DNA from: Ceratodon purpureus
Lineage: Eukaryota > Streptophyta > Bryopsida > Pseudoditrichales > Ditrichaceae
NCBI GenBank assembly: GCA_014871385.1
Contig: CM026426.1
Coordinates: 30,927,452 to 30,991,451 of the forward strand
DNA length: 64,000 bases
Direction of reading: 5' to 3'
The position numbers were made by a program, and so were the translations under genes. Shown here piece by piece: positions 547 to 32,159 of this stretch. How positions within the stretch are numbered: position 1 is the first letter of the stretch; every line of letters begins with the position of its first letter. Under the pieces are notes generated by a model that was not told where the DNA came from, did not search any database, and saw nothing but the letters and a program-made list of their open reading frames with translations.

Positions 547-2266
547 ATACTCCCTATTGCTGTCCGTAACTTGTTGAGCGAAGAGGTGCGCATAGCCATC
601 ATCAAAATGTGCAGGGTGTTTCAGCGCATTTGTGAGAAAGAGGTACGTGCAGACAGCAGCGACGCGCTCATGCGAGACGTGACAATGGCGTCGTGCGTGC
701 TGGAGAAGGAGTTTCCTCCAACATTTTTGAACGTGATGACACATCTCCCCGTACACCTCGTGGAGCAATTGTTCATATGTGGGCCAGTCCATTGTAGGTG
801 GATGTATCCAATTGAGAGGTAGATGAAGACGCTGAAAGACTACGTGAGGACACAAGCACATCCAGAGGGGAGCATCGCAGAAGGGTATCGTTTAGAAGAC
901 ATCCTCGGGTTCTGCACAGAGTACATGAGGCGACATCGGGCAACAACGCATCGTGTTTGGGATGCCACTGAAGATGCCTCCATGACTGACGAAATCTTGC
1001 GTGATAATGACAACACCAAGCGTAGATTGTCTGACGAAGTACGGGGCTATGCACATGCCTTCGTCATCGACAACGCTCCTTGCTTAGAACCATGGCGAGA
1101 GTGAGCCCCTAAAACTAACACCCACCCATCTAAGATGCCTCCAGAAATCAATAAGAGTACAAAACTGTGTTCAGGGCAGTGCTTCTATGAAATGTGTAGA
1201 CGCTTGCATGTCTCGTAGAATGTCTTTTATAACATCTGCCAAAATATCGCCAAGTATTTTCCCAAAATTAGAGTATGTCAATGCAGACGTCATCCGTGAC
1301 GTCGGAACACACACTTAGATGTCGTTCTGTACATCCGATCTAACAAATGTGTACTGAACCATGTTGTTTCTATCTATGCCGCCTTTCCAGCGTTTAACAA
1401 CGGTGTTTGGTCTTGTTTACAGGGAGTATGTAATCGCAAAGGCACGCCGCTGGGAGGAGCGTGAGGTATATCGAGCACAGTCCAGACGTCAGCGACCTTC
1501 CAGATCCGTCACGTATCCACCCGAATTGTGCGAATTGCCGCGTTTCGCAGAATGGCTGAGGGCACGGGTGGAGCAAGCTCAAGCGGCCGGTGATCAACTG
1601 GATGCAGATGTGGTACAGTACTCGTGCCCCCCAGAGAGGTATGCTACCACCCATCGGCTACTCAAGGCATTCGGAATGCGCTTTCGCCCTCGTACAGCGG
1701 AGGGAGGACTTGTCACCCGTGACTCCTGTGTAGTTACCGCATATACGCAGCAACTACGTTGGGGGATTCGCAATGGGAGGCCCATTGACCGCACCACCGA
1801 GTATGTGGGGTACATTGAGGAGATTCTTGAGTTGGATTACTGCAATCACTGTACCACAGTGTTGCTCTGCAAGTGGGTTAAAGCTTCCCGTGATGCACGC
1901 GTCCCCAACATTGAACGCGACAAGTACGGTTTCAGCGTGGCAAACTTCAACCACATGGACCACAGAGTACATGCGGAATCTTTTGCGTTTCCGTTGCATT
2001 CTCAGCAGGTCTTTTTTGTTGATGATCCCACAAGGCGGGGATGGAAGATCATTTGTCGTACAGACGTCAGAGGTCGGCGCACAGTGATACAGCATCGACA
2101 TGCAGTTGCCAACGTAGTTGCAGTGGGCAGCGACGACAACTTCCAGGGTTTGCAGCCGCCGGTTCTCGAAACGGAGCCAACTCGTCGTGCTGCTCTTGTG
2201 GGAGGGTCCTACGTTACAGCCGGTGCAGAAACAAACGACGTTTTCGAAATGGAAGAGGATGAATGA
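547..2266 (+). pseudogene. CACTA (En/Spm) transposase C-terminal part, DUF4218 + DUF4216
   Basis: This is the C-terminal half of a plant CACTA-type TNP2 transposase, the protein that mobilises En/Spm elements. Exon 547-1100 encodes the DUF4218 signature (FPPTFLNVMTHLPVHLVEQL, then GPVHCRWMYPIER, then PEGSIAEGYRLEDILGFC). Intron 1101-1422 (GTGAGC...TTTACAG) joins it in phase to exon 1423-2266. That exon carries DUF4216 (YVGYIEEILELDY, DKYGFSVANFNHMDH, FPLHSQQVFFVDDP) and ends in an acidic tail with TGA. An in-frame TAG lies at 820-822 inside DUF4218, between WMYPIER and MKTLKDYVR. The catalytic N-terminal half lies outside the window. The domain calls are strong; the copy is probably dead. Confidence 0.85.
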
Positions 2267-11464: not shown

Positions 11465-13229
11465 ATGGCAGGTGAGGGGTCTTCAACGATTGAGTTTAGC
11501 TGTACTTGTTCTAGCGAGGATGATACACTGTGTGATTACAACTCTATTCCGCAAAATAGGGAGTGCATGGAACCTGCTCTAGAGCTACATCAGTTACGGA
11601 GGGTAGAAGACCTAAGAGGCTTCTCCGATTACAACGAAGTGAACGTCCTAGTAGGTCATGCGCTAGAAACACATGGAGTGAACGCTTTACCAGAGCATAT
11701 GCTGAACTATGTTGAGGTCAAGGACGAGATTGAGTGTCCTGTGGACCTTGCTCTAGTGGAGCAGAGTCCTCACAAAAGACTCTCATTTGAAGAAGTTACT
11801 AGGACAAGACATTGTCACCTAGTCTCAGTGGTTTTGCCAACCGGGACTGATGAACACTCTGCATTGATTATGGAGACAGCGCTATCAAATGCTTCAATCA
11901 GTAGAGATATGTTTGTCCAGGCGAAGGACCTCTACAACATAGCAAAGAATTGTGCACATGAGACTTAAATGAAGGAAATGGAGACCGCTAGCATTAGGCT
12001 CTGGAAGGATAAGAACATTGGAGACGTTTTCTTTTATCAAGAACTTAGTCTGCTGGATATCAACAAGAAGGAACAAGACGACGCCCCCTTCACACTCGGA
12101 GTTCAAACATCCTGGCAAAAGGCTATGCTTGTGGAATTTGGCCATGGAAGTGTTGATTCTGTGGACGCCACGTTTGGTACAAGTTACATTCGGGTGACTG
12201 GAGTTTCCCATAACCTGAGCTATAGTAATTTTGTATGTGTAGTGCAATAGGTTTAAGGGTTTTTGTCTTGGAGCGTCCCAAAACCTTGATCCAACACCAA
12301 CTCCTCTGAGTATACTTTGTCACAGTATCCATTGTACACCGTTTTGGTGTTTGACGAATGGCGGAATGCTATTCCGGTTGCTTATATCATTGTCTCTAGA
12401 TCAAGCAAGATTGCTTTGAAATTAGTGCTACAGGCACTTAAAGACAAAGTCATATCTGCCAAGCGTGATCGGGAGCCATCATCGATAATTGTGGACAATG
12501 CTCAAGCTGGATTGAACGTCCTAGAGTAAGCTTATGCCTAACTTTATTTTCCTTTGAATTAGTTTACGGCAATTGCGCAATGATCACGTGTAGTGCACCT
12601 TTCTCACAACTACAATGCACTACAGGGAGTTGTGGTCGAGGTCGAGGATCCTAATCTGTTTCAAGTTTGTGGAGAAGGCATGGGCCAAAAATGCGGCAAA
12701 TACAATAAGTTGGATCGAGGACATGATCAATATCCTGAAGGATGCTGAAGACGTTCTGCACGGTGTAGGGTATGTTGTCGGAACTGATCCAGTGGCATGG
12801 GCTAGCAAGGAGCTGGACAGGATTAAGGACACACGGACTTCGGGAGCTCAGTTCATGAAATACATTGATAAGCAGTGGAGAAAGAAGATTGGAAAGTGGT
12901 GTGCCGCAAATCATAACTACTCTCATGCTAGCCAAAACATGAATGCTAGTATTCAGTCTTTCCAAGCTACTTTGAAAAGGATTTTGATGTTGAAGAAGGA
13001 AAATGTCGTAGGACAACAATTGGATTGGTTAGCCGATGATCTCAAGAACAAGGTCACGGGACAGTACTGGTATTTTAGAGCCCACGGTTTATATCGTAGT
13101 ATCAAGCAGGAGTTTATGAATGCCAATCCTCAAGAAGGGGCTTATTTCAATGGGGATTTAGTTTCTCTACTGAAAAAATCCGTATTTTTGAAAATATGTG
13201 TAGCACGTGTAGTACATGGATTCAGTTAA
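11465..13229 (+). pseudogene. Mutator-like (MULE) transposase, decayed
   Basis: A MULE-type DDE transposase. Segment 11465-11965 encodes an acidic leader without a known domain (MAGEGSSTIEFSCTC...) and meets an in-frame TAA at 11966. The same frame continues from ATG 11969 to 12193. Introns 12194-12325 and 12526-12625 (GT...AG, phases consistent) connect it to 12326-12525 and 12626-13229. The core shows TLGVQTSWQKAMLVEFG, then VDATFGTSYIR (first catalytic Asp), YPLYTVLVFDEWRNAIPVAY, PSSIIVDNAQA (second Asp) and FKFVEKAWAKN, then the downstream helical block NASIQSFQATLKRILMLKK and VVGQQLDWLADDL. A C-terminal SWIM finger is not visible, so the end may be truncated. The family call is good; activity is doubtful because of the TAA. 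Confidence 0.75.
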
Positions 13230-13814
13230 CACTATAAAACAATGACAGCTGAACACAATGATGTTGAATTCTGGCATGTTGTAATAAATAAAAGCTTTTG
13301 AGAACTATATATAATGTGTACTTCCAGTCCCTTCTTTTCCTATAACGCGGATAATATGATAACAAAGCTCATAACTTACTACACACATGACCACCTCTTG
13401 CGTTGTTTACAGCAATAGAAGTGGGTGCATGCTGTCCCGTCTGAACATGTCTTCTATGTCGGTGAACCCTCCAACTCACCAGCTACTAACACCTAGGCTT
13501 ATCTAAAGACTCATGTACCTTTCGACCCCCACATGAACTCTGTGTGTGTGCCACAACTAAATCAAACTCAATATATACATAGTCTGACAACAAAGATATG
13601 TTGTTCTATGTACTGTCAGTGATGCGAACTAAGGCCATCCTTTCCTTTGTTCCTCTCCATCCCGATTCTTACTACAGAAACCATGTAGTGCGTAGGAATG
13701 AACTGCGAACTACAAGATCAAGGCCTATGGACTGTTATGATGTATTGTATAACAACTTGTCCTACACTCCATTGTGGACGAGTAGTGCAACAACACTTCC
13801 TTTTTGCCTGAAAT
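13230..13814. other. Spacer between the two MULE-unit promoters
   Basis: No coding signal seen. AATAAATAAA near 13285 may be the polyadenylation signal of the transposase gene. Confidence 0.3.
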
Positions 13815-14438
13815 TCCAAATCTGTGAATTTTGAAATTGGCACTATAGCTTCCATGTACTTAAGGATAAATTGTTGGCTTCGGCCACTTATTCTATGGTC
13901 CTCCATGTTTGTTAAATGTTGGGATTTGTATGTACGGTAGAGATTTCTTAATATCGAGTGTTTTAGTTCGTAGTTGACAAGTTGCTAGTTTCTTTGTTCT
14001 TTGATATGGTTTAGAGTTTAGGATGACTATGGCGACAGATAGGTCCTCTGTGGTCAAGATTAGCAGTACCTGCACTGGTGAGGGTGACACATGCTTTGGT
14101 TCCCTTATGAGCAAAACAAAGATTGCTTCATATCATGAGTGATGCATTGCCAGGTTCCAGATATCATTAATCTCACAGGTCCTTCTGACTATGAGAGGAA
14201 GAGTGCGCTAGGTAGAAGTGCAACACGTACGCATGACAGGAGGACATTGCTATCCCACAAGGTGAACTATGACGATCTTGAGGATGACAGTTGGTGTGAT
14301 TTGCTCCTGGGTCGAAGAAAGCCGAGTCCTCAGAAAAGAGCGTCTCCTGTTGATATAAGTTGTGAGGACGTGCGACACGTTTGTAGTATGACAAGCGTCT
14401 CCGAGGCATCACTACATTGCGCAATATATCATCTTTAG
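13815..14438 (+). pseudogene. Duplicate of the MULE gene 5' end (promoter plus first exon)
   Basis: The flank at 13829-13895 matches the flank of the transposase gene at 11267-11330: GAATTTTGAA, then GCACTA, CCAT, AGGATAAATTGTTG and GGCCAC occur in the same order. The encoded peptide from ATG 14023 (ISSTCTGEGDTC) resembles the first gene (FSCTCSSEDDTLC). In another frame, 14155-14435 keeps the pattern SDY, TH, H-x2-NY, SP-x2-R seen in the first gene (SDYNEVNV, ETHGVN, EHMLNY, SPHKR). The transposase core is absent. It is a degraded second unit of the same element or a broken tandem copy. Confidence 0.6.
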
Positions 14439-16283
14439 CAACATCATACAAGTGACTCAATCCAAACAGCGGGGTGAAAATACACTACGGTTGTACAAAA
14501 TCGCACTCAGGGCAGCATCTCAGAGCAGGGTGTAAGTTTGGAGCCAAATTAACCCCATTCTTGGTAACTTTTTGTTAAAAGTAATAGTTAGGCGTAGTCT
14601 TACATCTCGTCTATTTTTAAGATTGCTTTGCTATCTTTGGCTTGCATCCCTCAATTCATCATAATGAGTACGAATTTGAAATGAAAGTACTGTCACATTT
14701 TCAGGATAAGTGTTTTGTACTCTTTATGTGAAGGTATAGCTTAGATTCTTATAGTTTAAAGAGCCAAAGTCCATGTTCTAGTACTTGACTAACATCCCCA
14801 ACTATTTCCATATGCCACAAAAGTCTATACAACACAAAACCCTAGAAAATGGGGGTTTTGGATTGGTGGGCCAAAACACAACGTAAAAGTTATTTTTTGA
14901 TATTTTTTTTTTGAAAATTAGTAAGAATACGTTTTGGTTTAGATGGGCCTAACATTCACGAATGACAAAAATGGTTTATTGGGGCTAATTGAGAGCATCG
15001 GAGATTTCAGCCTTCACTTGAGCCTCAGCCCATCAAAAACGATTAGGGTTAGCTCGCGTACTGGTTTTGTACACAGCGTACTCGTTGTACACAATGGACC
15101 AATCATCGTCCTAGAACGTGGCGATAAAAACAAGAATGACCTGACACTTCCAGGTTATATGGGGCCTTTTGCACCAACATTCTCTCCTCTACATTCGAAT
15201 TTGCAAAGGCGGGAGTTGAAGACTTTGTCGTTTCTCTATACCACCATGAGGGAATTTCACAGCGCCGCCTCTAAGTCATTCTTTCTGATTTCTGTTGTTC
15301 TCTTCGTTGAGGAGAAAGGTGGCATGCCTTTCAAGAATTGGCTTCTCAACACATCCCTCAAACCAGGTGAGTACTGTGTTATCCTTCGTTTCCTTGTGCA
15401 TGCATAGGAATTGCTTTGTGGGTTTTTGAAATATGTGACGAAAATTCAGCCAAGAAGGTGCAATGAGCGGTACTCTTGTCGAAGAAATAGGTTTTTGTAG
15501 CATTGTTTAAGATGTGTGGGTACCCTTCTCTGCTGCTTTGGGCTGCTACTTGCCTGCTCACTTGCTCTTGCGATTGCTGTGGGCGTCTTGTACTGTTGAC
15601 CGTTTCCTTTTCGTGAGAATAGTTGTACTTGTAGGTTCTGCATAGATTTGAGTAAATACACTCTTCGGAGTGTTTTTAGACATAGTGACAACGCAGAAAA
15701 TTAGAGGTTTGATTACAGTCCACTCGTCCGTGTCAGAAGTTTGTCGATTTTAACGTCCTTATCATTCTGTAACTCCGTTAGTACTTAGTGTATAAGTTAG
15801 AGTACAATATGTACTTCTTTTCGTACAACTCTATACTGCAATGTTATTCCTAAGTTCATACATCCTTTCCACTGGTCTGTGCTGTGTATCGTAATACCAT
15901 GTGTTCTTAGAATGACTCATATAATACTCCTAGAGCAGTCTACGTTGTTATCCGTGTCGTTAGAATAGTTGTTCCAGGTTGCGCACAAAATTGAGAAAAT
16001 GCACTCTTCGGAGTGTTTTCAGCCATGGTGAGTTCTCAGTATTCTTAACATTCGGTTACATTTGACTCGTCGTTGTTAGAAACGTATCGTGTGGTTTCAT
16101 GGTTATGATTTTGTACTTCTGGTAGTACATAGTGTACAGATTGAAGTACCTCATTCACTGCTTCTAGCACAACTCTCCTGTTTCTAGCACAACTCTCCTC
16201 TACGTTATAAGTATTTTCTGCTCCTACAATGTATCACCTCCTAATTTCCGAAACATTTTCTGTCTTGCAGTTCCTAGGTTTAC
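14439..16283 (+). other. Upstream region and 5' leader intron of the ParB-methyltransferase gene
   Basis: 14439-14940 has no recognised gene. The stretch 14941-15366 ends CCAG before GTGAGTACTG, and 16261-16270 ends TTGCAG. This suggests a non-coding first exon ending at 15366 and a 904-bp leader intron 15367-16270. Inside the intron two related blocks, about 340 bp apart, each carry CACTCTTCGGAGTG (15659-15672 and 16002-16015). The open frame at 14943-15407 has no known domain and is not called as protein. Confidence 0.4.
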
Positions 16284-19200
16284 ATGGATTACGATGGCGT
16301 AGATTGGATGGTTCGGAGCAGGGTCTTCTCCAGGGAAGACGAGCCGGCCATTGACGACTACGAAGATGGGGACGACGTCAATCTCCCTGCTAGTCCACGG
16401 GCCGAAGGTGCAGTCGACGGGAAGGTGAAGAAGATCCCTTTGGACAAGCAGCTTGATAAGTTGGCATCACTTAAGACGCATCCTCCACCCCGTGCTGTCA
16501 CTGCTGAGGAGTTCGAGAGCAAGTATGGCTTGCCCAGCAGAGGTAAAAACCCGCACAAGCTCCGACCTCCACATGACCTGCATGACAAAGATGTGAGTGA
16601 CGTTTTTGGGCTAGCGAAGGGGAGAAAGGGGAGATCTGGGTATCATTATGGAGAATGCAAGGATGTCGAAGTCTTAGCCCGCATAGCAGAAATTTTCCCC
16701 ATTGTGTACCTGCGAGACCTCCCCAAGTCCAATGTGATAGCAAAGCAATTTGCAAGAGGTATAATCATGGAGAAGCACAAGAAAAAACCTGTGAGCTGGT
16801 CGGAGTTTGCAGGGACCTCCAACAAGAACAAGCGGAGCAAATGGCTCAAAAATGTGAAATCGTGTCTCACGGGCCCAGCCGAGCTCACTCGTGCTGATGA
16901 GGTGGAGTTGTACAAGATGGAAGGGATAGATGATCTCTTCCATGACCCTACTGCTGGATCATCACCGGGAGACCATGGCTGGTTGGAGCCCTTTATGGAA
17001 GGCCGCGAGTGATCGTTTTGATGATAAGATCCGTGGAGACGAGGAGTGGATGCAATTCTCCAACAAGTTGTTTTTTGTCTGGGAAGGTAACCACCGCCTC
17101 GCTGCATGGCTCCGTCATATCAACAAGCACCATGGGGACGACCCAACATGGCACATCTCTGTGCAATGCATTGTACTAGATCCTCGCGGCCATGTGGGCA
17201 AGTTGCTCCACGCCATGCATGACATTAACTGGTAAGTATCCCCGTTCTTTTCCTTGTTTTTGCACACTCAATCTCTTGTGCTACTGCATTTTATTCCTCT
17301 AATATTCTACTTTGTTTTTCAGGTCGAATGAGAATGACCACGTGAAGAGTAATCTTCCAGCAAAGTTGTTTCGAATCCGCTCATTTGGGATGATGAAACT
17401 CGAGGATTTTAAAGACCTCCTTACAGTTGAAGAATATGATGCATGTCTGAAACACAAGCCACCTAATCCATCGTGGTTTCCCTTGACAACCAGACTTTTT
17501 ATAGCATTTCTGTACCGTATAAGTTTTACCAACTTCCTGTCTTTGCTTCTGTAACTTGGATAATTTTTCAATATTCTGATAAATAATTTTGTTTCAACAG
17601 CGGGAAATCGCAGTGGCCTTGGACGAAGCAGTGAGGGCCTACCTTGACAAGACACCAGAGGAGGAACAAACTGCAAATGCAGTTTGGGATGTCATGACTG
17701 AGGCCCCTGACAGAATGGTTGAATCCATCAAGAAGAAAGACTTTACCAAGTACTTGGCCATTGCAAATCCCAAGAATGGTGACGACTTCCTCAATGAGGT
17801 GACGCCCTCACTAATGCCATTTACAAAACTTTGTATGTCAATGTCATTTCCTTATTTCTTAGTGTCTAAAATAAATACTCTTCATGCAGATCAATCGACA
17901 TTTCAGTGACTTCTCAAAACCGCAGATGATCCTTGAGAAGCTACAAAAAATTGTCCCAGCAGTAGTTGAGGCCAAATACAAGGCTCGTTGGTTGAGATGG
18001 TGGAACTCATCCCCAAATTCTAGACTATCTTACAGATTCCTCTCGCTCGAATTCAAGGAAACCGACCTCGACCCTTGGTTGAACAAGGCTTCATTCTGGG
18101 CTGGGGTATATTTTCGAAATTTATTATTCAAATTACATGATGATTTCTTTATTTTTTATTAATTCTACCTTGTCGCTAATATATTGTCTTCTTTATTACA
18201 GTTGGAGGAAGCTGTCTTCAATGAAGTCGAGGACATATGCAAAGCAGAGAACCTCATCATCAATTGGAAGGATTTTCCTGATGTCTAGGAACCGGAGGCT
18301 TATGTGGAGAGTTCACGTATTCTTTTATGGGACAAGGCCTTCCCTACGTTCCTTGGAAAGAAGGAAGAGAAGGTTTTTGACAAGAAGTCGAATTTTGCAC
18401 AATTCTCTGGAACTGCAGAGGTTGTCAAGCGGGTTACTTACCGGTATGTTACTTAACTTCATCTCAGTTGTTTTCCATAATAACGGGCTCTGTATTTTTC
18501 ATTGATACTAACCTTCTATAAAATGATTTTCTTAGGTATTTTAAGAGGGAGCTCGTTCCGAAGGGCGCCATCACTGTCCAACAGCTTCTTAAGTACTTTT
18601 CTGCTTGGACTGAGAGAAGCTCGGATCAGTGTATCTATTCTCCCCAGCAGTTGAAAGGTACAAAGCTCCCCACTTGGAAGCTAGATGCTGGTATTTTGAT
18701 TGTTTTCGCGGTTTCACAATTGACTTGGAGGTGGACATCAAGACTTTACACGATGCCGGTGAGGTGGTGGCCGAAGACACGGTGGATGGTTTTGAAGATG
18801 ACGAAGGCCTTCAAGACCAATCATCAGCTCCTGCACCCAAGAAAGGGAGAGGGCGACTGAAATCTTTGCGTTCGCATTCACAGGCATTAAAGCAAACCGG
18901 TGCGGGGTCTTCCGCGCCAAAGCAGAAGGAACCAGAGCCCTCCCCAGGTAATGTCGTTACGATGCCTTCTCTAACTTCATTCCCGGCTCCTTCCTCGATC
19001 AGTGCTTCGGAGATCACCAGAAGTCTCCTTGAGCAGAGGAAGGCCAAAAAATTTCCGCAAACTACCTCTTCAGCTGGAATTCCTCATTCCACACAGGTCT
19101 ACGTCATCAACTCCTCCGTGGACTCAGTTTTGCTTCGACACAAGGAGCTCTCCGACAGGGGTGGCAATCACAAATGGAACAAGGCTCTAGACATCATTAG

Positions 19201-20649
19201 AAAGGTATGATCCGTTTTTGAGTCCTTTCCCTTCGATACGTACAATAATGTAAATCTTATAGTCTCTACCTCTGTTTTCTTGTTTTCTCAAGTTTGGAGC
19301 AAGCCGCAAAAACCGAGTTCCATCAAGATGCATTGAGTAGAATCACTTGGGATTCGACTTGATCATAGCCGACATTCTTGAGAATCTTCCGGTCCCTACG
19401 ATATCCAATCCCCCCTACGTCATTCCATCTTGGAACAAACGTCATAAGGAGTATTTGGAGGACCTCTTCAAATTTGCAAGACATTTCTTGCAGTATGATG
19501 GTGCTCTTTGCATAATCCACAACAACGACCAAGATCTGGCTTCGAAGATTTTTCAAGTGGCTACTGTTGATCGCTTCGTGCAGCACCGAGACTGGTGGGG
19601 CTTCAATGCAGTAGGCTTGGCTCACCCTACGATCCCCGACTCCTTGGTATGTACATCATAATCATTCCTTGTCTTTGCTTACTGATAACCTTTCTGGTTT
19701 TTTTACACTTACATATTTTGGTGTCTCGCAGTCTCTTCGATTCTGGGTGCGCGTCTTCATTCGTGGTGGTCATCCCCCATCCAAGTTCTCTTTTCAAACA
19801 AAGAAATCCGATGTCATATACAACAACCTCCACATTACCGAGAGTGATGCCATTCTCAACTTCACCGATGTGGAATCGCAGCACATGAATGGGGAGGTGC
19901 CGTGGAGAGGCCCAAGGAAGAAAGCCCCTGAGATGATGCAGGGCATAATTGAGGAGATGACCAAGCCCGGCGATATAGTCTTCGAGTGGATGGCAGGAAC
20001 AGGTAATCCTTCATTAACAGTTTCTCCATTTCCAATCCTCTGATTTTCTCCACAGAGACTCACTTCTTTCCTGTGCTACGTGTTTTCAAGTGCCTCCCTT
20101 AAGGCTTGCCAGAGTATTGGTCGTCAAATTATAGCTTGTGAGGAGGACAAAGCCATATTCAACGCCCTTCTCAAACCGTATATGGCTACGTCATTTGCCA
20201 TGGGCCCTCCAAAACATCCTCGACCGGCAGCAGTGGAAGACGCACCTCCAAAAAGAGCAAGACGAGATAAGTACTGTAAGTTCTTCTTTACATTTTCTAA
20301 CTTCAGGGCTAGTTCTCTTTGCTTCTTTACTGATTCCATCTTCACCCACTTATTCTTACCACTCTCGATTTTCTTTTGCAGAGTAGTTGGGGCAACACCG
20401 CCACGTAGGCCAAGGCCCGTGTCCATTCCATCGTGGCGTCTTCATTCCAGTCCGATTCAGCCTTATATACTTCTGGATTATGCAGAGGGCTTAGCACAAG
20501 CGCTGCAATCTGGAGCTCTTACATATGTTCCTAGTCGGCCAACTACTTTTGATCCCAGGGCCCTTGTATTCGTCGATGAAGAGGCTGTAGAAGGAGATCC
20601 AGAGTCATTGAGTTCTGAAAGTGGAAGTAGCGATTGTAGCATGTCGTGA
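16284..20649 (+). pseudogene. ParB-like domain + beta-class amino-DNA methyltransferase, about 10 exons, frame-damaged
   Basis: Predicted DNA adenine-N6 or cytosine-N4 methyltransferase with an N-terminal ParB/sulfiredoxin-like domain. Exons by eye: 16284-17231, 17323-17516, 17601-17798, 17890-18105, 18202-18443, 18536-19204, 19293-19646, 19732-20002, 20056-20275, 20384-20649. The ParB-like signature is FVWEGNHRLAAWLRH near 17080-17120, followed by WHISVQCIVLD. Residues near 18800-19080 are low-complexity and basic. The catalytic domain has ISNPPYVIPSW (motif IV, NPPY) near 19404, then GDIVFEWMAGTG (motif I) ending at 20002, then GRQIIACEEDKAIFNALL. The order IV before I marks the beta class. 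Damage: a one-base shift near 17001, TAG at 18286 and at 19338, and phase conflicts near 17516, 18630 and 20056. ParB-methyltransferase fusions are familiar in phages and bacteria; a spliced eukaryotic copy is unusual. Domain calls are fairly sure; the exact model is not. Confidence 0.7.
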
Positions 20650-20912
20650 GTTTGAAGGAGGCTTCGGTCTATCATTGTATTCATCTGATTTGATTTGATT
20701 TAATTGAAGTTTTATTGCATATTCCTTCGTCTACTCTACTGCAAACAACCTAAACTTGCTATGATTCTCATTTCCAGTTCGTATTCGTGTATGTAAAGGA
20801 TGAAATGTCACAACTGTAATGCTCAAAATGTAACATGCACAATGAAATGTTACAACTCATTTGCTCAAAAAATATATATATATTGCTGTAATTACTTTCT
20901 TAATCATTCATG
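20650..20912. other. Intergenic, 3' of the methyltransferase gene
   Basis: AT-rich. A short direct repeat is present: GAAATGTCACAACT and GAAATGTTACAACT, each followed at a short distance by GCTCAAAA. Nothing else is recognised. Confidence 0.3.
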
Positions 20913-21476
20913 TTACCTATTCTTGGGAGAGATCCAGATACCATCTCTCGGAGAAATTTTATCACCTTCCGGCACATCTAAGACATGATTCCCATTGGCC
21001 AATAGCAATGACCTCAACTGATCTAACTCAACGCAACTAAGTTCTCCGAGGGACACTGTCTCTAACCTCTCGTTGTAAATTGGATTTGCAAGTTTCCAAG
21101 AACTCCTAAAAACACACCAGTTGATGTTGAACCGATTAACTTTGTATTCGTCCTTCGGACTCCAATGGCGACCCTCGTACGAAAAGTAATTCCACCTCGC
21201 TAGCCAAAGGCATGCGTATTCAGGACTGCTGTCAATCTCACGGTTCCACCTCTTCGACATAGCACGAGCGTTCTTGACGTCTTCAAACGTGATTACCGTC
21301 GGAGGAGTCCAACCCTGCGTTGCACTACTACCTATATGATCCCAAGGGTTAGGCCCATGCGCCATCCGCTTAAGCAAATCCTGTAAAATCGTTTCACAGG
21401 CAACGACCTCAAATGAATCGCCCATATCTTCAAACAACTCCCTAGCAAGTACAAGCTTAAGTTCTACAGAAACCAT
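20913..21476 (-). CDS. 187-residue protein with an F-box-like segment
   Basis: Single open frame from ATG at 21476 down to 20913. The segment ARAMSKRWNREIDSSPEYAC resembles the second half of an F-box domain (conserved Ser-x-Arg/Lys-x-Trp, then Ile-Asp-Ser-Ser), and CETILQDLLKRM could be its first helix, with an insertion between. F-box proteins recruit substrates to SCF ubiquitin ligases, but no substrate-binding repeat is present in this short product. It is convergent with the methyltransferase gene. Its 5' flank is duplicated in tandem (21431-22698). It could also be an unrelated ORF; I hold the F-box reading loosely. Confidence 0.4.
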   Translation of the reverse strand: MVSVELKLVLARELFEDMGDSFEVVACETILQDLLKRMAHGPNPWDHIGSSATQGWTPPTVITFEDVKNARAMSKRWNREIDSSPEYACLWLARWNYFSYEGRHWSPKDEYKVNRFNINWCVFRSSWKLANPIYNERLETVSLGELSCVELDQLRSLLLANGNHVLDVPEGDKISPRDGIWISPKNR

Positions 21477-22698
21477 TGTGCTAATTCAACTTCAAGGATG
21501 TCTGCCAATGTCTATATAGATCGTTGCTCGACACTTAAGCTAGGAATGGTCTTATCTAAAGACGGAGAATTCTTCGACCAAGACATGCAGTCTGACTTGG
21601 TATACATCTTGGTTTCAGCAACTCCATTATTGTACACGAACTCTGAAATATTCCACAAAGTCTTAAGACCATATCTTCTTCCTTGTTTCGAGTTTTTTTT
21701 TTCCTTATAATTATCTATATTATCTATTCAATCTGTATTGTTGTGATTTAAAAACATCATGCATGAATAGTCGTATCTAGATCCAATAAGGGACCAAATC
21801 TATAGGATTGTATGCATGACGTCATCATGACATCAGCCCTAATTTGTACATCAAAAAACAGACGTAAAAAATTCTTACCAAAGATAACCCTGTATTCCAC
21901 GGAATCATACTCCTTTACTAAAATAAATAACAAAATTATGCCTTATTTTAGTAACTTTCCACGGTTATAGGGTCTACTTTGCTTTTGAAAATTTCGCTAA
22001 TTGTCAATTCTGTGCTCTCCATTCTGTGCTCTCCGCTCTCCGCTCTACGCTCTCTGCTCACATACAAACTTTCCCACCTTCAAACAACTCCCTAGCAAGT
22101 ACATGCTTAAGTTCTAAAGAAATCATTGAGCTAATACAACTTCAAGGACGTCTGCTAAGGTTTATATAGATCGTTGCTTGACACTTAAGCTAGGAATGGT
22201 CTTATCTAAAGACGAAAAGTTCTTCGAACAAGACAAGCACTCTGACTTGGTATACATCTTGGTTTCAGCAGCTCCATTATTGTACACGAACTTTGAAATA
22301 TTCCACGAACTTTCTGGACCGTTTCTTTTTGCTTGTTTCGAGTTTTCTTAGTCCTAGAATTATCTATATTATCTAAAAACATGATGCTGGAATACTCGTA
22401 TCTTCATCCAATACTAAACCAAATCTAAAGGAATGTATCCATGACGTCATCATGACATCAGCCCTAATTTGTACCTCAAGAAACAAACGTAATAAATTCT
22501 TACCAAAGATAACCTTGAATTCCGTGGTAATATACTCTTTTCCTAAAATAAGTAACAAATTAATGCCTTATTTTAGTAATTTGCCACAGTTGTAGGGTCT
22601 ACTTTGCTTTTGAAAATTTGGGTAATTGTCATTTCTGTGCTCCCCATTCTGTGCTCTCCACTCTCCGCTCTACGCTCTCCGCTCACATACGAACTTTC
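21431..22698. repeat. Tandem duplication, period 650 bp, two copies
   Basis: CAAACAACTCCCTAGCAAGTA starts at 21431 and again at 22081. Similarity continues to the end of each unit, where runs of GTGCTCTCC / CGCTCTCCGCTCTACGC occur at 22013-22060 and 22636-22685. The duplicated block includes the start codon and first codons of the F-box-like gene plus its upstream region, so the right copy is a promoter-and-start duplicate without the rest of the gene. Confidence 0.9.
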
Positions 22699-29546: not shown

Positions 29547-32159
29547 ATGGATCCGGTTGAAGCGGTTGCTCCGGCTAGAGCCGTTCCGAGACTCGATACG
29601 AGAGAGTGAACACCATGGTTTACGGTCAAGCTCAAGGAAGGGTCACTGTCAATTAAGGAAGCCCAATGTGTGTATTGCAGGACCAAGATTTCGTACGTGA
29701 AGTCTAGGTGCCTTCAGCATTATGGTTGGGACCAGCCCAATCTCTCGAGGGTTTGCCAAATGGCAGCTACCGCAGTGAAGAGGAAGTTTCAGTTTTGCGG
29801 TGGAAAGATTCCCAGCCCTTTGACACAAGAGGAGATGGATGGTATGAGGCCAACATTCACGGCGCCAGTTCAACGTCCGTGTTTTAGTGCTTCCACACAC
29901 GGCACTCTGTACGGTGGATCCGATCCCTCGTACAATGATACCGAAGAGGACCGAAATGTCTCCAATGCGGCACCTAGTAGGGCCGGTTCAAATACCACTA
30001 GGAGCTTGCGGCAAGAGGACATGAGTGAAGCACTCCAAATCTGCAAGCAAAAGGAGCTGGACATGTTGTGGGCATCCTTCTTTTACAAAGCCAACGTCGC
30101 GTTCAACGTGGCCAAACACCCAGCATTTATAAAGGCGGTGAGCACAACGTCGGCTGCCGGATTTGACTACAATCCCCCTTCCTATAACGCAATGCGAACA
30201 ACGCACATCAAGGGAAAAAAGAAGCAAATCAAGGCAAAGATTGATGAACGTACGAAAACGTCGACCGAGTTATATGGGGCTACCATTTGCTCTGATGGTT
30301 GGGATAATGTGAATCGCCGACCGTTGATGAATGTCATGCTAGTATGTCCGGCAGGCAATGTATTTCTTGGGTCTGTTGATACAACTGGCGAGAAGAAGTC
30401 AATGGGATACATTGCGGGGGAGATGAAGAAGTATATTCAAGAAATTGGCCCTCAAAATGTTGTCCAGATTTGTACGGACAATGCAGCCAACATGCTTGGC
30501 GCCATGGATAATATCCTAGAGGAGTATCCTCACATGTACAAGCAGGGATGTTGTGCCCATATTCTAGATCTTCTCCTAGAGGACTGGGGGAAGGAACGCT
30601 TTGTGAAGGATTTGGTTGCCAAAGCTAAACACGTGTGTCATTACATTTGGAGACATCATGTTCCTATGGCCCTTTTCCGCAAATTTGAACCGAAGTTGTC
30701 CTTGGTGGTTCCCGCTGAAACCAGATTCGCTTGTAACTATCTGATGATAGAGCGCCTTATAGACGTTAAATTTGCTTTGGAGCAAGTGGTCATGGCACCG
30801 GAGTGGTTTGAGTATGTCGACGGTCTATTCAACCAAACCGAGGGGGTGCGTAATCATGCAAGCGCAAGCCTAGTGCGTCAAACAATTCGTGATGATGGAT
30901 TCTGGCATCAGTGTGACAACTTCAACAACCTGGTAAAACCAGCCCTAGTAGCTCTGAGAACGTTCGATGGTAACCAGCTCGCAATGGGCAAGGCATGGGT
31001 TACTATGAGCAACCTGAAGGATCACGTGTACGGTCTCCGAGGCTCTCCTTGCTTTTTCCCACCGGACATGGCAACAAGGCTAGAGAGGCGATTGGATCGT
31101 AGATGGGACATGATGCACACTAATCTTCATTATGCCGCGGCGCTCTTGAACCCTTGGACAAAGGGCATCGCGCCCTACAAGCCATAGGAGAAGCGAAGGC
31201 GGGCTCTCAATCGGGTGTTTCGTCAGGTGGGTGGGCAAATGGGAATTCCATTTGCCGAACTCGTGGCAGAGATTACCCAGTTTGACGAGGAACGTGGCCC
31301 TTACAGCCCCGAAGTGACCATCCATATTGCAGCAGCAAATCTGGAACCCCATCAATGGTGGCAAAGGATTGGGGGGGGGGGGGGGGGGGGGGCCTTGGCA
31401 ATCATTGCCAAGCGCATTTTATCTCAGGTCTGCTCCGCCTCATCGTGTGAACGGAATTGGAGCATGTATTCGTTTGTCCACAACAAGGTACGCAACTGCC
31501 TGGGGTTGGAGAAGTCTGAGGCCTTGGTGTACATTTATACGAATAGCAGACTCCTCCGTGAACGCCCAAAGCCCAACCCCCTCAGATGGTACGAGAACAA
31601 TGCATGGTCAGAGGAGTCAGATCCGGAGAGAGATCCAAGCGAAGAGGAAGGAGATGACGACGATCATTATATACCAGTTGACCACGCAGGCAGTGGGGAT
31701 GATGATGTCTGGGGACATGATAACGTCGACGTTAACACGAATGGGCACAACGACGGTAATGGCAACGGGCGCAATGACGCTAACCGCAACAATCCTTGTG
31801 ACCGCAACAACCACGATGATAACGGTGATGCGTACGACTTCAACAATGAACCAGAATATAACCAGGGAAACCCGGACGTGAACATCTATGGAGACGAATT
31901 ACCCACACTCCCGGTATTTGATGAAGCGGCTAATGCAGAAGGAAGAGACGCACATGACGAAGGAGATGCTATTCCAGTGCATATCAATCCCGATAACAAT
32001 GACGGGGTTGCGGATGATTCCTCCAGCGAGGACCATCTTGGCAACAATAACCATGCTGGCGATGATGACGAGGGCAATGACGAAGGGGGTGATGGAAGTG
32101 ATGGACGCGGCGCAGATGGACCTCATTGGACTGGTCTCGTTAGTGGGGAGGGCAACTAG
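29547..32159 (+). pseudogene. hAT transposase: BED finger, DUF659, C-terminal dimerisation domain
   Basis: One frame from ATG 29547 to TAG 32157 (870 codons), broken only by TGA at 29607 and TAG at 31185. The leader after the TGA reads TPWFTVKLKEGS, then CVYCRTKISYVKSRCLQHYG, a BED-type zinc finger. DUF659/RNase-H core: TICSDGWDNVNRRPLMNVM (first Asp), QICTDNAANM (second Asp), GCCAHILDLLLEDWGK. The hATC domain after 31185 includes ILSQVCSASSCERNWSMYSF, with the conserved Glu in CERNWS, and NKVRNCLGLEKSEALVYIYTN. Between WWQRI and ALAIIAKRIL there are 22 G (31371-31392). The C-terminus is a long Asp/Asn/Gly-rich tail. The intact protein would bind element ends and cut them. The family call is firm. 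Confidence 0.9.
31371..31392 (+). repeat. Homopolymer of 22 G inside the hATC coding region
   Basis: It encodes an extra poly-glycine stretch at a point where hAT proteins normally have only a few residues. Its length keeps the frame. It may be an expansion or an assembly artefact. Confidence 0.9.

Follow-up and report, generated by a model that had tools for sequence, protein, structure and literature searches.

A dispersed methyltransferase-domain gene family with its own 14-bp sites in the moss Ceratodon purpureus, and a dead relative of it on contig C6

The window analysed in this study is the 64,000-nucleotide stretch at positions 30,927,452-30,991,451 of contig C6 (110,524,308 bases) in the 362-Mb, 151-contig assembly of the moss Ceratodon purpureus, for which a preliminary description had reported, from 16284, a single spliced gene joining a ParB/Srx-like domain to a beta-class DNA methyltransferase. 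What lies at the reported locus is a commonplace, dead copy of a repeat whose 5' end and NPPY motif had been misread, and it belongs to a dispersed, probably mobile gene family (family A). What is not ordinary is a related family (family B), which is conserved and is signposted throughout the genome by a 14-bp near-palindromic site. On balance, we consider it probable that a mobile-element family is represented here whose protein recognises its own DNA through these sites, in the manner of VANC.

Family B was obtained through a genome search with PF01555 (N6_N4_Mtase), which gave 32 matches, and 10 kb was taken around 20 of them (200 kb in total). The gene has seven exons, with fewer introns than family A, and is 30-48% identical to the exons of the window copy; all seven exons were matched without a stop in 15 of the 20 loci. 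The B protein is under purifying selection, with a median ratio of nonsynonymous to synonymous substitution rates (dN/dS) of 0.088 (range 0.046-0.328; 55 of 190 pairs usable, about 1000 codons). Additionally, a genome search with the single ParB-looking exon gave 175 matches (150 of 3056 candidates scored), and among the matches listed family B accounts for at least 56 loci at 65% exon identity or above, 42 of them full-length over that exon and 38 of those stop-free in it. Such full-length, stop-free loci make up only 2 of 14 on C6, whereas elsewhere they make up 36 of 42. In the accessible part of PMC9273592, the U chromosome of C. purpureus is given as 110.5 Mb and the V chromosome as 112.2 Mb; C6 would be the U chromosome. 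Dispersed near-identical copies that include introns and flanks occur in both families, and near-identical B copies lie on different chromosomes (L025 and L026, 98.4% identical over 9.9 kb).

Counting words in the B loci surfaced GTTCGGCACAGAAC and its kin. The motif, a 14-bp near-palindrome written GTTC(G/T)GYRCCGAAY, is present at 8-16 sites in 16 of the 20 sampled B loci, upstream of the gene and within its introns. In its degenerate form it was matched 168 times on both strands of the 200 kb of B loci and never in the 64-kb window, and 200 shuffled motifs gave a mean of 0.02 and a maximum of 1 in the same loci. The core TTCGGNNCCGAA, allowing one mismatch at most, was likewise found 172 times in B and not at all in the window; 66 of these core sites are upstream, 103 in introns and 3 in exons, with none in the roughly 2 kb downstream that were covered.

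The sites are also more conserved than the DNA around them. Within alignable noncoding DNA, sites diverge by 7.1% and their flanks by 22.2%, a difference seen in 17 of 17 pairs outside a site-poor clade, pairs which share loci and are not independent; the sites are under selective constraint. The same holds, at 4.9% versus 10.1% in 6 of 6 pairs, for four loci that are poor in sites (L009, L010, L017 and L019), each with 0-1 consensus sites and with 8-10 degenerate sites when scanned with position weights derived from the remaining loci. Because these four form a nested clade in the tree, their loss of sites is secondary. Their proteins have a dN/dS of 0.13-0.33 in 6 of 6 pairs, compared with 0.05-0.16 in the remaining nine of the 15 closest pairs.

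Across the genome, the exact form GTTCTGTGCCGAAC occurs at 316 places (146 forward, 170 reverse) against 0 and 1 for its reversed control, and GTTCGGNNCCGAAC at 234 places against 20. Positions were taken from the first 100 of the 316 GTTCTGTGCCGAAC sites in contig order, on C1-C4, and for 93 of these a B gene is no more than 20 kb away (about 0.9% expected). Of the 19 B genes on C1-C3, 17 are accompanied by a site from this list, and the two that are not include L010, a member of the site-poor clade. A PF01555 genome match lies within 20 kb of 51 of the 100. Six multi-site clusters had no such match, and B genes are present there according to an independent protein search; the clusters thus predicted these B genes ahead of that search. 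The layout is regular, with sites on the same strand about 8 kb upstream and from -2 to +2 kb, densest at the promoter and first introns, whereas the distal sites at +10 to +13 kb are on the opposite strand (15 of 15 listed). In three units, triplets with 42-bp spacing lie far upstream, at about 8 kb or more.

Combined, these results suggest the following arrangement. The family B gene would be carried in a unit of about 20 kb whose cluster of sites extends through the upstream region, the introns, a position about 8 kb upstream and an inverted set 10-13 kb downstream. The B protein would use its N-terminal and linker parts to bind its own DNA at these sites, and either methylation (N4-cytosine or N6-adenine) or binding alone would take place there. 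The putative outcome would be an element kept expressed or mobile, with binding in the service of autoregulation, anti-silencing or mobility. The roles of motif reader and of methylating enzyme, like the mobility of the unit, are what we infer from these sequences.

Several observations weigh against this explanation. Family-A loci hold 1 core site in 73 kb (a sample that leaves their upstream region outside) and the window copy has none, so that the link to the sites rests on family B and not on the window's own family. Seven of the first 100 listed sites are away from B genes. The same is true of tandem GGGCCC forms (C1:24153049 and C3:384528) and of further GTTCGGNNCCGAAC sites, six of them at C2:4061633-4066812 and another at C1:15543466. 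The 10-kb loci of family B, which cover part of the unit, showed neither a terminal inverted repeat nor a target-site duplication nor a transposase. At the protein level, motif IV reads DQPF, DTPF or DQPY in family B rather than DPPY, and DIPE or DILE in family A; no ParB family was matched in Pfam, NCBIfam or PHROGs among 16 members; and a PDB profile search returned galectins only, at E 0.55 or worse. The shared loci of the constraint pairs and the contig-ordered first 100 sites, given above, belong on the same side.

The tandem GGGCCC forms are copies of GTTCGGGCCCGAAC in 53-bp steps (C1:24153049-24153168 and C3:384528-384753) and apparently belong to another repeat. The flanks of the B loci were also searched for a second gene; open reading frames (ORFs) were listed there, none of them recognisable.

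The nearest functional parallel for the proposed B role would be VANC of the Arabidopsis VANDAL elements, which, in the accessible portions of PMC5735166 and PMC10398659, binds clusters of YAGTATTAY that lie, within the element encoding it, in introns and in intergenic and terminal noncoding DNA. According to the same portions, VANC is element-encoded and sequence-specific, its targets lie partly in tandem repeats and motif content differs between copies; in family B, a short motif is likewise clustered in the family's own noncoding DNA and, with the exceptions above, scarce elsewhere. The differences are that VANC carries DUF1985/DUF287 and no methyltransferase whereas B has the PF01555 domain, that the motif is YAGTATTAY in one case and a 14-bp near-palindrome in the other, and that anti-silencing by VANC was demonstrated experimentally whereas B is known from sequence. 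DUF1985 was absent from the Pfam matches of the exons scanned (B exon 4 lay outside the scan). If the proposed explanation is true, a plant genome would contain, besides VANC, another and unrelated answer to the same problem, and also a source of non-5mC marks whose address is known.

A more specific version, which we regard as doubtful, is self-marking. The protein would write N4-methylcytosine (4mC) or N6-methyladenine (6mA) at its own 14-bp palindromes, in promoter, introns and ends alike, and so shield the element from silencing by the 5-methylcytosine (5mC) of the plant. A phage-like combination of ParB-looking domain and amino-methyltransferase would then have been adopted by a moss mobile-element superfamily, with modification rather than binding alone as its function. 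The 14-bp motif lends itself to a test of the proposed explanation, since about 300 exact sites can be inspected for 4mC/6mA and for 5mC. The site-less clade with its looser protein constraint, together with the mostly broken copies on C6, also constitutes a natural experiment. Marchantia has a plant 4mC writer of bacterial type, DN4MT. A second eukaryotic 4mC writer of bacterial type is N4CMT of bdelloid rotifers, described in the accessible part of PMC8885841. Compared by description, both share with the moss genes a bacterial-type amino-methyltransferase in a eukaryote and differ in being few-copy, whereas the moss genes are dispersed, number tens to hundreds and come with self-sites.

Family B might instead be an expanded host gene family of the moss, co-regulated by a host transcription factor that is unrelated to it and binds the 14-bp motif. 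B genes are indeed mostly intact and conserved, and the sites are densest round the promoter and first introns. A host factor would, however, be expected to have sites at other genes, whereas 93 of the first 100 listed lie near B genes; sites are also present about 8 kb ahead of the gene and 10-13 kb beyond it, and near-identical 10-kb copies such as L025 and L026 occupy different chromosomes. We therefore consider a host gene family unlikely.

TNPA of the En/Spm system has subterminal binding sites that are short and inverted toward the element ends. The B motif could similarly be a subterminal and internal site for a transposase or accessory protein, with the methyltransferase fold serving as a DNA-binding scaffold that does not methylate. 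All 15 listed sites at +10 to +13 kb are inverted, as in the case of TNPA, and this, the 42-bp spaced triplets far upstream and the altered motif IV agree with such a role. It is unlikely in our judgement, given that many B sites also fill the promoter and introns, that motif I is well kept in B and that no transposase was seen within the 10-kb loci, themselves part of the unit.

It is highly improbable that the motif has no binding function and was spread only as tandem duplications arose in rapidly evolving noncoding DNA, although some sites do belong to tandem units, spaced by 74-75 bp in L013 and L020 and by 264-274 bp in L018 and L022. The flanks of the sites are unrelated, with no position outside the motif above 0.55 bit, so the unit is short and there is no long repeat; moreover, divergence at the sites is below that of their flanks in all 23 pairs.

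For the explanation preferred here, in which the B protein recognises its own DNA, the relevant part would be the N-terminal domain. Its GNHR motif, of the GxHR type and followed by a helix, reads DGNHRLVAW in family B, where G127, N128 and H129 are invariant and R130 nearly so, and EGNHRLAAW in the window. Among Pfam families, DndB gave a weak signal in 5 of 16 members (best E 0.011). The domain is called ParB-looking only, because no ParB family was significant, and a ParB-type fold is what we infer from the motif; of the ParB/Srx-like assignment in the preliminary description, the GNHR-type motif has stood, and the profile search that it suggested brought no ParB match. In exon 3 of a B gene (L018:4817-5260), Linker_histone is matched below threshold (E 0.0022, 18.6 bits against a cut-off of 22.4), and this exon may perhaps encode a winged-helix-like DNA-binding part.

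The nearest protein parallel is found in phages and prophages, in which proteins with a ParB-CTPase fold are fused to an N6_N4 methyltransferase, as described in the accessible part of PMC12704722. The likeness is in domain order, a GNHR-type ParB-looking domain followed by a beta-class methyltransferase; the moss proteins differ in their introns, long linker, altered motif IV and lack of a significant ParB profile match. Neither plants nor mosses are mentioned in that part of the paper. In a tblastn search against 50,697 phage records, the methyltransferase of a paralogue had its best listed match at E 1e-3 over 37% of the query and matched 290 records weakly (E up to 1); the ParB-like exon had no phage match by tblastn and no confirmed match to a viral contig, and a DNA search against phages gave none. 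An old transfer from a phage or bacterium, as had been suggested, is thus possible, with nothing decisive in these matches. A literature search, mostly of papers outside subscription, found no report of a ParB-like protein in mosses and none uniting VANC-like self-sites with a ParB-methyltransferase fusion in mosses.

The methyltransferase assignment itself was confirmed. When the last exons of the window copy are joined in the frame from 19341, they match PF01555 at E 3.9e-8 (34.0 bits, curated cut-off 26.7 bits), which answers the suggestion that region 19293-20275 be searched with a hidden Markov model; the match spans the motif-I half only and leaves NPPY outside. In family B the same profile is matched over positions 2-218 at E 1.8e-9 (38.3 bits) in L001 and E 1.4e-8 (35.4 bits) in L018. 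PF05175 (MTS) matches 19341-19649 below its cut-off (E 5e-4). With the motif IV side first and motif I last, the motifs are ordered as in beta-class enzymes; motif I reads FEWMAGTG in the window and VVDLSASTGASLRAC in family B, where it is well kept. Canonical motif IV in the paralogues reads DLIILDQPYN, DLVIIDQPF or DLIIMDTPF, and in an alignment with 12 paralogues it falls on DLIIADILEN (19356-19385) of the window, whereas NPPY is further downstream in a gapped stretch. NPPY, which had been taken as motif IV, is therefore probably not the catalytic motif. Methylation by the B protein appears possible because motif I is kept, and uncertain because motif IV is altered.

The window copy proper runs from 16969 to 20646 on the + strand, with exons bounded by GT..AG and nine introns, in agreement with the earlier count of at least nine. 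EGNHRLAAW (17083-17109), NPPY (19407-19418) and FEWMAGTG (19981-20004) are all on this strand within such exons, as reported. The first surviving exon (16969..17232, GT at its 3' border) covers the second half of the ParB-looking domain, including EGNHRLAAW, and a joined tblastn match aligns it to residues 88-174 of family-B exon 1 at 47% identity (E 3e-27). It is followed by an exon with further ParB-looking sequence (17324..17515), placed by tblastn with family B and splice borders, by a helical linker exon (17601..17798; family-B exon 2, 43% identity, E 1.5e-12) and by another linker exon (17890..18105; family-B exon 3, 29% identity, E 8e-7). The exon at 18202..18444, defined by translation and splice borders, contains an in-frame TAG at 18286-18288 that is private to the window copy among the rows shown (the exon is matched in 18 other copies, of which 5 share no residue with a stop at this position). 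Next, the exon at 18537..19204 carries a frameshift near 18650-18656, evident as two overlapping frames against family-B exon 4, its homologue, which is a single open frame in most loci. The methyltransferase part begins with the motif IV side at 19293..19646, which has a second TAG at 19338-19340 along with DLIIADILEN and NPPY, and continues through an exon with the intron-split motif I (19732..20004; PF01555 and alignment) to one finishing the motif I region (20092..20274; PF01555, family-B tblastn and splice borders). The last exon (20383..20646) encodes an acidic serine-rich tail, and a similar ending is seen by eye in family B.

The gene does not begin at 16284. A search with window 16284-20650 scored 39 of 1016 candidate places and gave 42 family-A matches there. 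The start is at query 685-701 (window 16968-16984) in 32 of the 42, and no match except that of the window to itself starts further left. Similarly, the family-B ParB-like exon aligns by tblastn only from 16969, at its residue 88. The DNA to the left is an unrelated repeat, class 1 (14472..16967, no strand assigned, right edge inferred), with over twenty near-complete genome copies at 94-97% identity. A search with window 12500-16283 put its left edge at query 1971-1975 (window 14470-14474), the copies reaching the query end at 16283. Among 29 class 1 copies, none is within 5 kb of the 39 listed family-A matches, one is less than 20 kb away and another less than 50 kb. Because family A starts at about 16968, class 1 is separate and the B exon aligns from 16969, the first exon (ORF 16278-17012) and leader intron of the preliminary description are part of this other repeat; the "gene" from 16284 is a chimaera, and the GNHR domain of the window copy is without its first half. 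Window 12500-14471 was considered as a candidate for the 5' part that family A is missing and rejected, as none of its 10 copies lies within 50 kb of a listed family-A match.

As it is 5'-truncated and has two stops and one frameshift, the window copy cannot methylate. That the locus is a domesticated, working 6mA/4mC writer of bacterial origin fits the PF01555 match and the spliced structure and may be dismissed for this copy, given its chimaeric 5' end, stops, frameshift and many near-identical copies; of the earlier alternatives, domesticated or carried on a mobile element, only the latter has gained support. Bacterial contamination, which would also have undone the earlier claim, is excluded, because this exon-intron stretch recurs at dozens of places in the same assembly. 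The spliced, eukaryotic nature of the methyltransferase gene stands on the same introns and copies, and the paralogue search that had been proposed returned many copies, the intact relatives being family B.

For family A, a genome search scored 40 matches at 90-94% identity, out of 771 candidates, in addition to the window itself. Over three exons, 11 of 20 loci have stops and 14 of 20 a stop or break, and pairwise dN/dS has a median of 0.37 (range 0.09-0.74, 190 pairs), a value that fits copies from working parents which then decayed. A convergent 190-amino-acid ORF (20913..21485, - strand), which gave no match in a Pfam scan, travels with the gene; homology continues past window 21400 into it in 18 of the 19 other family-A loci (L030-L048), the exception being L033.

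Beside this ORF, at 21428-22670, there are direct repeats of 278 and 300 nucleotides (spacing 650 and 625, identity 89% and 87%). Class 1 has 25 of its 29 copies on C6, which is 30% of the genome; one copy reaches the final base of C3 and another lies less than 18 kb from the end of C9, and the repeat is perhaps subtelomeric. Broken B copies form a tandem triplication on C6 (19183974, 19188944 and 19193914), 4,970 bases apart and with identical stops. A third group of sequences, 38-45% identical over part of the ParB-looking exon, is dispersed, with many identical scores and shared stops, and looks like further mobile subfamilies. Elsewhere in the window, a 525-amino-acid ORF at 29610-31184 (+) matches PF04937 (DUF659, E 3.8e-37) and is presumably hAT-transposon-like, and a 302-amino-acid ORF at 1358-2263 (+) matches PF13952 (DUF4216, E 2.5e-8), a domain that we take to occur in plant transposons.

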